This document shows positions 32,563 through 36,592 of a stretch of 64,000 bases of DNA, piece after piece (the stretch's first letter is position 1; each line of letters starts with the position of its first letter). The stretch comes from Erythrobacter sp. EC-HK427 (lineage in GTDB: Bacteria > Pseudomonadota > Alphaproteobacteria > Sphingomonadales > Sphingomonadaceae). The DNA is taken from the NCBI RefSeq assembly GCF_902498745.1, contig NZ_LR701479.1:1695663-1759662 (forward strand). Reading direction: 5' to 3'. The notes under the pieces were generated by a model. That model saw only the letters and a list, made by a program, of their open reading frames with translations, was not told where the DNA came from and did not search any database. The position numbers and the translations under genes were made by a program.

Positions 32563-33375
32563 CTATAATTCCCCTTTGGTAATCGTGTGGTGCGCCGCCT
32601 TTCCGGATGCGCGGCGCGGCAGGGCCCAGCCCCACAAAACACCGTCGCGGAAGGGCAGGGCGAGAAACAGATGTTCGAGCGTGCCGAGCGCGGCGAAGGC
32701 GAACAGCAGGCTTGCGCCCACCGCCTCCGCGCTGCCCGCCGGTGCAGCGATCGCCAGCGTGCCCAGCCAGAAGCTGAGCGATGCGGCAGCGGCAATCGCG
32801 CCGATCAGCGGCCAGCTGAACCGCTGCGGGCCGTAATAGCTCTTCAGATAGGCCAGATGCGGCGGCAGGATATCGGTCGCCGAATTGGGCACGCCGTGGA
32901 AGATGTTGAGCTTGGTCGACAGCCGCATTGTATACAGCATGGCAAAGGTCATCGCGGCGATCTGGTTGGGGGCGTTCCATGTCAGCGAGATCAGCAGGAC
33001 GGCGGTGACCGCCAGCGTGATTTCGTGGTGCACCAGCGTCTCGCTCGCCTGCCGGAAGCGTTCCCAGCCGCTCACGTGCGGGTCGCAGGCGACACGCCGT
33101 GGGCCGGAGACCGCGCCGGTGAGGAAGCCGATCTCGTGCCAAGTCCACACCATCAGCGCGCCGCCAAACGCGGCATAGGCCGCCCACACGCTGACTGAGC
33201 CCATGCTGAGGAATACGATGCACAGACCCAGCAGCCCAGCGGCCCCGCCCCAGGCGAGGCTGCGCGGGAACGTGTTTTCGCCGCGATTATCCAGCCACGC
33301 CACAAGCCCTGTGGCGATGAACCAGATCGCAATGGTCGCCAGAACCGGCAGAATGTGGCCGCTCCAGCTTACCAT
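32563..33375 (-). CDS. puhE: Photosynthetic complex assembly protein PuhE
   Basis: 270 residues from ATG 33375. An integral membrane protein with about seven hydrophobic segments (first at residues 4-26). The family (DUF3623) occurs only in purple phototrophs, next to acsF and hemA, and modulates reaction-centre and light-harvesting assembly. Family marks visible: [33 protein letters not shown] and HHEITLA. The start codon overlaps the acsF stop (ATGGTAA), so translation is coupled. No cofactor-binding motif is evident. Confidence 0.92.
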
Positions 33376-34430
33376 GCCGGGCGCAGCATGACCGGCTGGT
33401 CGACCGTATTGGGCTTGGTGCGGTGGAAGTACATCCGTGCGAAATGCCATCCCGCGCGCGCCATTCCATTGATCTGGGTCAAATATCCGCCGACACCGCC
33501 TTTTTCCTTGCCCGCCTGGATCGTGTCATTGGCACGGCGCAGTGCTTCCATCTGCGTGCGGAAGGCCGGGCTGTCGATGTCCAGCTCCACCGGGAAGACC
33601 TGGCGGCAAATCTGGTTGCAGATGTTGAAGACCTTGTAGTCATACTCGGTCGGATCGATGCCCAGCGCGGCGTGGAACACCGGCCGGTCGTGATCGCGCA
33701 CATACATGGTGGCATAGACCGAGAGCAGGAAGAAGCGGATCCACAGCTTGTTGTGGCCTTTCAGCAGCTTGGGATCGGCGTGCATCAGCAGCGCGAAAGC
33801 CTCGCCATGACGGAACTCGTCATTGCACCATTCCTCGAACCAGCTGAAGATCGGGTGGATCTGCTTGTCGGGGTTGGCGGCGAGATGGCGGAAAATCGTG
33901 ATATAGCGCGAATAGCCGATCTTTTCCGACAGATAGACCGCGTACCAGATGAATTTCGGCTTGAAGAAAGTGTATTTCTTCGTCCGCGTCAGGAAGCCCA
34001 GATCAATCCCGATCCCGGCATCCTTCAGGCTTTCATTGATGAAACCGGCATGGCGGCTTTCATCGCGGGCGAGCAGTTTGAACAGCTGCTTGACGTCCGG
34101 ATTCTTCGTCCGCTTGGCGATTTCGGCGTAGAGCACGCAGCCCGAGAATTCGGCAGTGAGCGAGCTGACGAGGAAGTCGATAAACTCGGCGCGCAGTTCG
34201 GGTTCCAGCCGGGCGATGGCGCCTTTGAAGCTGTCATCCTTCTTGAAGTGCTGCTTGTTCGGGTCGCCCACCATTTCCGCGATCAGCGCATCCCATTCGC
34301 GGCGCACCAGCGATACGTCGATCGCGTCGAGCGCGGCGAAATCGGTGGTGTAGAAGCGCGGGGATAGCACGGTCTCGTGCGTGGCCATCGCCATGGTGTC
34401 GTCACTGGTAATTGGTGTGTGGGCGTTCAT
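33369..34430 (-). CDS. acsF: Aerobic Mg-protoporphyrin IX monomethyl ester cyclase
   Basis: 353 residues from ATG 34430 (GGGAGGG upstream). This di-iron enzyme uses oxygen to form the fifth (E) ring of the chlorophyll macrocycle. Iron ligand motifs: Glu94 in LTAEFSG, Glu124 and His127 in ARDESRHAGF, Glu205 and His208 in NDEFRHGEAF. No oxygen-independent bchE is in the window, which fits an aerobic phototroph. It overlaps orf95 by 4 bases and puhE by 7. Needs BchH and BchM products as substrate. Confidence 0.96.
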   Translation of the reverse strand: MNAHTPITSDDTMAMATHETVLSPRFYTTDFAALDAIDVSLVRREWDALIAEMVGDPNKQHFKKDDSFKGAIARLEPELRAEFIDFLVSSLTAEFSGCVLYAEIAKRTKNPDVKQLFKLLARDESRHAGFINESLKDAGIGIDLGFLTRTKKYTFFKPKFIWYAVYLSEKIGYSRYITIFRHLAANPDKQIHPIFSWFEEWCNDEFRHGEAFALLMHADPKLLKGHNKLWIRFFLLSVYATMYVRDHDRPVFHAALGIDPTEYDYKVFNICNQICRQVFPVELDIDSPAFRTQMEALRRANDTIQAGKEKGGVGGYLTQINGMARAGWHFARMYFHRTKPNTVDQPVMLRPAW

Positions 34431-34714
34431 CGCACCCTCCCCGGGTTGAAGCTGACTTCGTACAGCTCTTTGAGATCGAAATAGGCGGAAAGGCGCGTCC
34501 ATGCGCGGCCAAGCGGCGTGGCGCGGGTGACGGTGGCCATGCGGTCGAACACGGCGGTTTCGCCGAACGCGATCTGGATCGGAGCGCCGTGCACCCGCAC
34601 GCTATCACCGGGCTCGATGGCGACATCGCCCGCCAGTTCTACATGGGCGTGAAAGTGGTTCGCACTCTGCTCCACGCTGATGCGGCAAGGCAGATCGAAA
34701 CTGCGGGCGTTCAT
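34427..34714 (-). CDS. Small conserved-looking protein between puhC and acsF, function unknown
   Basis: 95 residues, soluble, no signal peptide or membrane segment. Both ends overlap neighbours by 4 bases (ATGA with puhC and acsF), strong evidence that it is translated. Residues about 15-50 look like a small beta domain (HFHAHVELAGDVAIEPGDSV), and the C-terminus ends in a conserved-looking helix-rich patch RATPLGRAWTRLSAYFDL followed by ELYEVSF. I do not know a biochemical role. Unnamed ORFs are reported at this place in other phototroph clusters. Position suggests help with AcsF or the reaction centre, for instance as an auxiliary cyclase factor, which is a guess. The ancillary cyclase protein BciE of alphaproteobacteria would be a family to compare. 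Confidence 0.8.
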   Translation of the reverse strand: MNARSFDLPCRISVEQSANHFHAHVELAGDVAIEPGDSVRVHGAPIQIAFGETAVFDRMATVTRATPLGRAWTRLSAYFDLKELYEVSFNPGRVR

Positions 34715-35196
34715 GATGCATCCCCTTGGTCGAGCATTTCGAGGAAGACGGTGCGGTTGTCGGGGCCGAATGCGCCCAGTTCGATACTGCGGCTGGTCGC
34801 TGTATCGACAAGCGAGAGCGAGCCGTCTTCCCAAAGGGTGAGTGCAAAGGGCGGTTCGGCACCGACGGAATGCATTCGCCGTTCGCGCGCCATGCCGCGC
34901 ATCACGCCGCGCACGAAGCCGCCGCTTTGCGTTTCCATATCGATCACGGCCACCGTTTCCCCATTGTCCGCATCGCTGACAAGCACGGTGCCATCCGCTT
35001 GGTCGGTGAAGCGCAGGCTGCGTTCGACTACCGCGCCGACATTGGCTTCTGCCCGCGTTACCTCGGGCACGGCGAGCCGGTCGACAAAGCCCAATGAGGA
35101 TGCCGTGGCTAGGCCGAGGCAAGCGAGCACCAGTGCCATGGCGCTGGCCAGCGCGGGGCCGGGGACGGTGTTTTCGTGATCGTGCGTATGGCTCAT
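34711..35196 (-). CDS. puhC: Reaction-centre assembly protein PuhC
   Basis: 161 residues from ATG 35196, which overlaps the puhB stop. One membrane anchor at about 15-37, then a periplasmic beta-rich domain with the family's GGFVRGVMRGMARER and the PPFALTLWEDGSLSLVD segment. In Rhodobacter, PuhC helps RC-LH1 core assembly. His-rich N-terminus (MSHTHDHEN) is cytoplasmic. Short overlap with orf95 downstream. The identity rests on order as much as sequence. Confidence 0.9.
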   Translation of the reverse strand: MSHTHDHENTVPGPALASAMALVLACLGLATASSLGFVDRLAVPEVTRAEANVGAVVERSLRFTDQADGTVLVSDADNGETVAVIDMETQSGGFVRGVMRGMARERRMHSVGAEPPFALTLWEDGSLSLVDTATSRSIELGAFGPDNRTVFLEMLDQGDAS

Positions 35197-35816
35197 GCTG
35201 CGGCCTCCTCCAGCCCGCCGCGTGTAACCTTGTCCGTCGAAGCATCCGCTGCGCCGCGCGCATTGGGTGCGACGGCAAAGCAGGCATCGCGGAGCAGTGC
35301 GGCGACGTTTTGCGCATCGGGCACAGCGCGCAGCATCGGTTGTGCCGGGCTGATCCGCCACGGCCGCGCGTGCGGCCAGAGCATCGCATAGCCAAGCCCG
35401 TGACGCCCCACGAGCTCCAGCGCGATATCGCCCGTCTCGCCCTGCTGCGATCGCAAATGGGCAGAGCCGATCATCTTCAAGGGCAGATTGACGCAGGCGT
35501 TCAATGCCACACCGATGCGCAGGACGATGCGGCGGTTGGTGATGGTGTAGACCGTCGTGCGCGCCACCAGCACGGCAAAGCCTGCCAGCAGGCCAAGTGT
35601 GCCCAGCCCGCCGACCACGCTTGCAATCGTACCGCCGACCGATCCGCTCGCCAGGCTCACCAGAGCAAGCGCGGCGAAATAGAGCGCGATCCAGCGCGAA
35701 TAGAGCGCGCTGCGCAGGAAGATCCGCCAGTCCGGCGCGCCCTGCCAGAGGATACGCTCGCCTTGCGGCAGCTCCCCCGGCAGGCCGCGCACCGGCTCGT
35801 GCTCATATTCCATCAT
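35193..35816 (-). CDS. puhB: Reaction-centre assembly protein PuhB
   Basis: 207 residues from the ATG at 35816, which shares ATGA with the puhA stop and has AGGAG 8 bases upstream; a start 21 bases earlier lacks such a site. An N-terminal GERILWQGAPDW motif is typical of the family, with two or three membrane helices (about 35-90) and a PH-like cytoplasmic domain (bPH2; VYTITNRRIVLRIG). PuhB assists dimeric assembly of the reaction centre in Rhodobacter. Confidence 0.92.
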   Translation of the reverse strand: MMEYEHEPVRGLPGELPQGERILWQGAPDWRIFLRSALYSRWIALYFAALALVSLASGSVGGTIASVVGGLGTLGLLAGFAVLVARTTVYTITNRRIVLRIGVALNACVNLPLKMIGSAHLRSQQGETGDIALELVGRHGLGYAMLWPHARPWRISPAQPMLRAVPDAQNVAALLRDACFAVAPNARGAADASTDKVTRGGLEEAAA

Positions 35817-36592
35817 ATCAGCGGCTCCTGCCGGCATTCCTTCGCGTAAAGGTAGCCGCCGCCGAAGTAACCGATGACCCGCTCTTCTTCGAGGCGGGTG
35901 ATTTCGGTCGCCGATGCGAGCGCAGGCACCCCGGCATAATCCGCCGCATTGATCGCATCGATTTCGACATAGCCGCGCTTCACCACCGCCATGGCCATCG
36001 GTGCGAGCACGGTCTTCTCGCCGATATCGACTTCGAGATAGCGCACGATGTGTTCAGAGCGGTCAACCCACAGGTCGCGCACCTTGCCCGCCACCTTCTT
36101 GTCTGCGCCGATCACGTCGAGCCCGCGCGGATCGATGTTGAGCAGGAAGTGGGCGACACCAAAGTCGGCATCGCTCGACATCGGCACGATGCGCGTCGTG
36201 CCGTGCGCGGTCATGTCCGGATAGTCCTGACGCTGGGCGTAGCTGGCAGGGCCAACGCCGTCAGCCAGCGGATTGCCGGTGGGGAAGTAGGGCGCACCGG
36301 CGAAGTTTTCGCGGCGCCGTGCGGCGATTTCCACCGGCTCGCGCCCTTCGCGGCGGCTGCGCGGATAGGACACGGTGCCCTTTCCGAAAGGCAGTTTGAA
36401 GGTCTTGGGCGCAGCCGTGCTAAGCGGGCCACCATACTGCCCGACATGGCCGGTTACCGCATCTTCCAGCGGATAGCCTTCGCGCCGGTCTTCGCGCCGC
36501 AGCCAGAAGACGAGCGCCAGAAAGAACAGGAAGAATAGCGAAAGTGCTATCTCCGCAAGGTCTATCGACCCAACAATATTACCGTCAGCCAT
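35813..36592 (-). CDS. puhA: Photosynthetic reaction centre H subunit
   Basis: 259 residues. One N-terminal membrane helix (about 12-31, LAEIALSLFFLFFLALVFWL) and a cytoplasmic PRC-barrel domain (about 140-235; VAGKVRDLWVDRSEHIVRYLEV) that caps the L/M subunits and channels protons to QB. Family marks: REGYPLE and the FNIDPRG-like LLNIDPRGLDVIGAD. AAGGAA precedes the ATG. It is 21 bases downstream of lhaA, the largest gap within the whole run, and followed by puhB with overlap. Confidence 0.97.
   Translation of the reverse strand: MADGNIVGSIDLAEIALSLFFLFFLALVFWLRREDRREGYPLEDAVTGHVGQYGGPLSTAAPKTFKLPFGKGTVSYPRSRREGREPVEIAARRRENFAGAPYFPTGNPLADGVGPASYAQRQDYPDMTAHGTTRIVPMSSDADFGVAHFLLNIDPRGLDVIGADKKVAGKVRDLWVDRSEHIVRYLEVDIGEKTVLAPMAMAVVKRGYVEIDAINAADYAGVPALASATEITRLEEERVIGYFGGGYLYAKECRQEPLI

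Follow-up and report, generated by a model that had tools for sequence, protein, structure and literature searches.

Results

A 95-codon gene between puhC and acsF

The window, by which we mean the whole 64,000-nucleotide stretch of Erythrobacter sp. EC-HK427 DNA that was analysed, carries genes on its minus strand in the order puhA, puhB, puhC, a 95-codon gene, acsF and puhE. Their coordinates, and the basis on which each was assigned, are as follows:

35813–36592, minus strand: puhA, reaction-centre H subunit (TIGR01150, 324.8 bits)
35193–35837, minus strand: puhB (NF040894, 202.3 bits)
34711–35196, minus strand: puhC, reaction-centre assembly gene, 161 aa (TIGR03054, 152 bits)
34427–34714, minus strand: almost certainly bciE, 95 aa (ORF, position, profile and phyletic pattern, alignment; positional name from the available part of PMC10576062)
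33369–34430, minus strand: acsF, diiron cyclase, 353 aa (TIGR02029, 485.6 bits)
32563–33450, minus strand: puhE, longest ORF (TIGR03055, 193.4 bits)

The true start of puhE probably lies further in, since the TIGR03055 profile match begins at residue 35. The gene under study comprises 95 codons and a stop at 34427–34714, where the plus strand gives another reading. Its translation agrees with the preliminary description, which named no strand. As the preliminary description had pointed out, it shares an ATGA overlap with both neighbours, at 34711–34714 (puhC stop and gene start) and at 34427–34430 (gene stop and acsF start). These overlaps suggest that translation of puhC, the 95-codon gene and acsF may be coupled. 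There is one copy of acsF in the whole genome, and a search of the whole genome with the family profile (E up to 0.001) returned a single match, this gene, so that no second bciE was found elsewhere.

Outside the window, the same genome carries bchE (TIGR02026, 816 bits; L217:8379–10010) followed by bchJ (TIGR02019, 119 bits; L217:10012–10614), at about 114.4–116.6 kb of G000:C2, which places the pair some 1.6 Mb away from the photosynthesis cluster on the same contig. No match to bchE was found in a genome of the same genus (G325) or in two of the same family (G145 and G012).

Database status and sequence conservation

Scans of the 95-aa protein against Pfam and NCBIfam gave nothing over cut-off (best bDLD3, E 0.16), and the best E values in a sequence search of the PDB were 0.39 and 0.2. 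When the 46 aligned members of the gene family, the window's included, were compared with Pfam at E up to 0.1, 10 families were matched by any of them, all weakly. The commonest was the zinc finger PF19769 (10/46 members, best E 8e-4), which we rejected, as just a single cysteine is invariant across the alignment.

A tblastn search of plasmids returned 11 records, nine of them at E values of at most 4e-13, with the closest relative in Novosphingobium capsulatum (65% identity). Six of the nine strong records were examined, and in all six the gene, annotated as ‘hypothetical protein’, sits between puhC and acsF. The two weak matches, H10 and H11, lie outside any photosynthesis cluster and were discarded; the stretch matched in H11 reads as unrelated sequence.

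G325, a genome of the same genus, has a homologue with 76% identity. The two genes differ with dN 0.17 and dS 0.87 (NG86), a dN/dS of about 0.2, and their differences are distributed 16/12/40 over the three codon positions. Six residues are invariant in the 46-sequence alignment (C10, G36, D37, A65, L84 and F89), from which L164 (the same protein as L163), L168 and L170 were left out. A C-terminal patch (...FDLKELYEVSF) had been singled out in the preliminary description as conserved; conserved it is, but not uniquely so, as half of the invariant residues lie outside it.

Occurrence across genomes

The gene family follows acsF closely among alphaproteobacteria. In a sample of 385 genomes from the window's class it was detected in 23 genomes, all of them among the 27 with AcsF, and in 0/358 genomes without AcsF (Fisher p 3e-33, with relatedness ignored). 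A phylum sample of 398 genomes had AcsF over cut-off in 31, namely 28 of the window's class and three of family f193; the gene family was present in exactly those 28 and in 0/3 of the f193 genomes (G599, with a weak AcsF match below cut-off, was left uncounted). Homologues thus accompany acsF in 43 of the 47 distinct alphaproteobacterial AcsF genomes from the two samples combined.

Family f193, which appears to be a Rubrivivax-like betaproteobacterial family, is the only non-alphaproteobacterial AcsF group sampled. None of its 120 genomes has the gene family, though 20 have AcsF, including the three from the phylum sample; the profile behind this 0/120 does pick up the gene when run on the class and phylum samples. 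Among 77 genomes without AcsF, no puhC was found over cut-off, the one weak match below it being in G066. Since acsF and puhC are found together in nearly all of the loci seen, the phyletic pattern by itself does not distinguish a function in the cyclase from one in the reaction centre.

Gene order and spacing

The arrangement seen in the window is the usual one. With duplicates of the same genome included, puhC lies directly upstream of the gene in 166/172 family-positive loci. The gene ends between -7 and 86 bp ahead of the first aligned AcsF residue in the 168 loci with both (some genomes counted twice). Another four (L061, L105, L127 and L128) have no countable acsF frame: L105 has an incomplete acsF, and the other three stop within about 125 bases past the gene. 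Measured in 163 family-positive loci, among which some genomes appear twice, the distance from the puhC stop to acsF is 280–430 bp. For 19 of the 20 f193 genomes with AcsF the corresponding distance ranges from -17 to 67 bp, too short to hold the gene, and the twentieth, whose acsF is split, gives 173 bp.

The six family-positive loci without a puhC match are L077, which lies at a contig edge, and five loci from three genomes: two each from G327 and G642, and L117 from a single-cell genome. The gene stands directly before acsF in all three genomes. In G642, bchM (TIGR02021) lies just before the gene and acsF, with part of bchL ahead of bchM (L218, L149), while puhC and puhE are found on another contig without bciE, behind frames that by eye resemble puhA and puhB. 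In G327 the gene and acsF are preceded by a PUCC-family gene; another contig carries puhB and puhC fused together. The fusion is a single 381-aa frame (L219:784–1926) in which NF040894 and TIGR03054 both score over cut-off. L117 has the order puhA-puhB-gene-acsF with no puhC found, in a genome that is small and may be incomplete.

AcsF loci without bciE

bciE is missing from four alphaproteobacterial clusters, in which acsF follows puhC directly: G091 (L203), G128 (L205), G065 (L202) and G123 (L204). Their puhC-acsF gap is 10 to 79 bp, and there is therefore no room for bciE there. A broader profile run against the four genomes at E up to 10 gave nothing better than E 0.149, and G123 had no BciE match.

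The AcsF proteins of these exceptions fall in two places in a quick 71-row tree, which has SH-aLRT support only, no bootstrap and an arbitrary root, and leaves out G099 and G814 (acsF broken over contigs or frames). Those of G065, G091 and G128 cluster with their f193 counterparts (support 87), which is what one would expect of an AcsF able to act by itself. The G123 protein belongs to a 13-row group in which the other 12 rows have the gene (SH-aLRT 95), with G105 as its nearest neighbour (84). Gain and loss of bciE are not separable on such a tree. A comparison of AcsF alignment columns, with 48 family-positive rows set against 19 from f193, left F117 and T148 as the only positions to differ by the thresholds set; both were rejected as determinants because G123 keeps the positive type at each.

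Predicted structure

An AlphaFold model built from the window's protein and 60 relatives (mean pLDDT 73, pTM 0.59) has strands at residues 5–16, 21–27, 38–42 and 53–63 and a helix at 67–78; residues 82–95 are poorly predicted (pLDDT under 50). Foldseek gave no match at E values of at most 0.001 (best 0.81), and a VIA fold search gave no chain at Z 5 or more. We claim no fold, as both searches stayed below their thresholds. The VIA matches included the reductases T4moF (toluene 4-monooxygenase reductase) and GcoB (Z 3.8 each), and benzoate dioxygenase reductase and E. coli NAD(P)H:flavin oxidoreductase (Z 3.6 each), which we take to share an FNR-type barrel. Phage tailspikes scored as high in the same search (Z 3.3–4.1), and because of this tie the reductase matches are no evidence of function.

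Discussion

Identity of the gene

The 95-codon gene is almost certainly bciE, an identity that rests on its position and on a homologue that occupies the corresponding position in Cereibacter changlensis, a member of the same genus as R. sphaeroides, with 47.6% identity over 84 residues. That the gene is bciE and its product an accessory subunit of AcsF is a reading in which we place very high confidence. The locus tag of R. sphaeroides BciE is presumably rsp_6110, and a 2017 PNAS paper reportedly distinguishes three cyclase classes.

The available parts of the literature give the operon order puhBC-bciE-acsF-puhE and also report bciE in Myxococcota (PMC10576062). The preliminary description proposed the gene as a candidate for BciE, and its position, its phyletic pattern and the name already published for that position (PMC10576062, as available) bear this out. 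The same account called the protein unknown, which holds only for the databases, where it is a ‘hypothetical protein’ in the six plasmid records examined. Its premise that alphaproteobacterial AcsF needs BciE is stated in the parts available of three papers (PMC7319587, PMC13297055, PMC7242693). The AcsF of R. sphaeroides (RSP_0294) is active in a strain that lacks both bchE and ccoP, according to the accessible part of PMC4944227. The find is thus an ordinary one, as BciE and the need for it have already been published, though databases still say hypothetical. A ‘hypothetical’ gene of 43/47 sampled alphaproteobacterial AcsF genomes gains its identity, and the 46 aligned sequences could serve to build a family model for a gene that falls below the Pfam and NCBIfam cut-offs.

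Alternative readings and proposed role

An open frame that arose by chance and has no function would sit well with a protein below every Pfam and NCBIfam cut-off. Against it stand the 46 aligned sequences with their invariant residues, the dN/dS of about 0.2 and the strict link to acsF; the conservation refutes this reading, and we give it practically no credence. The gene could instead encode a reaction-centre assembly factor that works with PuhB and PuhC, with acsF a neighbour only through the common operon, and a new assembly factor was indeed the other option offered in the preliminary description. The ATGA overlap with puhC and the regular presence of puhC directly upstream (166/172 loci, genome duplicates included) speak for such a factor. 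We nevertheless hold it to be very improbable, as the three genomes without an adjoining puhC keep the gene immediately upstream of acsF. In G327 and G642 the upstream neighbour is not puhC, which lies on another contig; where the operon is split, the gene stays with acsF and not with puhC, which argues against a role in reaction-centre assembly, albeit in two draft genomes whose contigs do not fix the real distance to puhC. With puhC and acsF present but the gene missing, the f193 genomes favour neither side.

A further alternative concerns how BciE might work and not what the gene is, namely as an electron-transfer or flavin-binding adaptor handing electrons to the diiron AcsF. A predicted model made mainly of strands with one helix, the presence of FNR-type-barrel reductases among the VIA rows, and the electron donor on which AcsF draws (figure legend in the available part of PMC7319587) would be compatible with such an adaptor. 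We regard it as distinctly unlikely: the tailspikes score equally high and no chain reaches Z 5, the best Foldseek E is 0.81, the model is of limited quality (mean pLDDT 73, with residues 82–95 under 50), and other groups have an AcsF that functions without BciE (PMC7319587, PMC13297055, in the parts available).

As an AcsF accessory subunit, BciE would be small, probably soluble and co-produced with AcsF, and would let the diiron enzyme use O2 to close ring E of Mg-protoporphyrin IX monomethyl ester. By analogy, the window's BciE presumably does the same job as other alphaproteobacterial BciE proteins. It probably binds AcsF and stabilises or activates it, as Ycf54 does in oxygenic phototrophs, and its help may concern assembly of the diiron site, substrate handling or electron supply. 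The portions of PMC7319587, PMC13297055, PMC10576062 and PMC7242693 available to us state no mechanism for BciE, and those of PMC2890560 and PMC10443036 contain nothing further on it.

The requirement for BciE may not be universal, because 4/47 genomes have no match, including G123 with its gene-bearing relatives. It is possible, if rather doubtful, that BciE is dispensable for some alphaproteobacterial cyclases. In G123, a natural change in AcsF or in another protein may have replaced BciE; if this is true, comparing the G123 AcsF with its sister AcsFs could reveal what BciE does. The natural bciE-less AcsF loci provide test cases for its mode of action.

Comparison with known systems

Ycf54 is a small accessory protein needed by the AcsF of oxygenic phototrophs (PMC7319587, in the part available), and BciE resembles it in being a small AcsF accessory protein; at the level of sequence, none of the 46 members matches the Ycf54 domain PF10674 at E up to 0.1. 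A parallel in position is Dshi_3543, gene no. 46 of the Rhodobacteraceae photosynthesis gene cluster, which is listed as ‘hyp’ with under 100 aa and lies between puhC (Dshi_3542) and acsF (Dshi_3544) (Table 1 in the available part of PMC6052148); we liken the two by size and by their common slot in a puhC-X-acsF order. With alphaproteobacterial BciE, from which no difference was found, the window's gene shares its place between puhC and acsF, its group of organisms and, in the genomes sampled, an occurrence only together with acsF.
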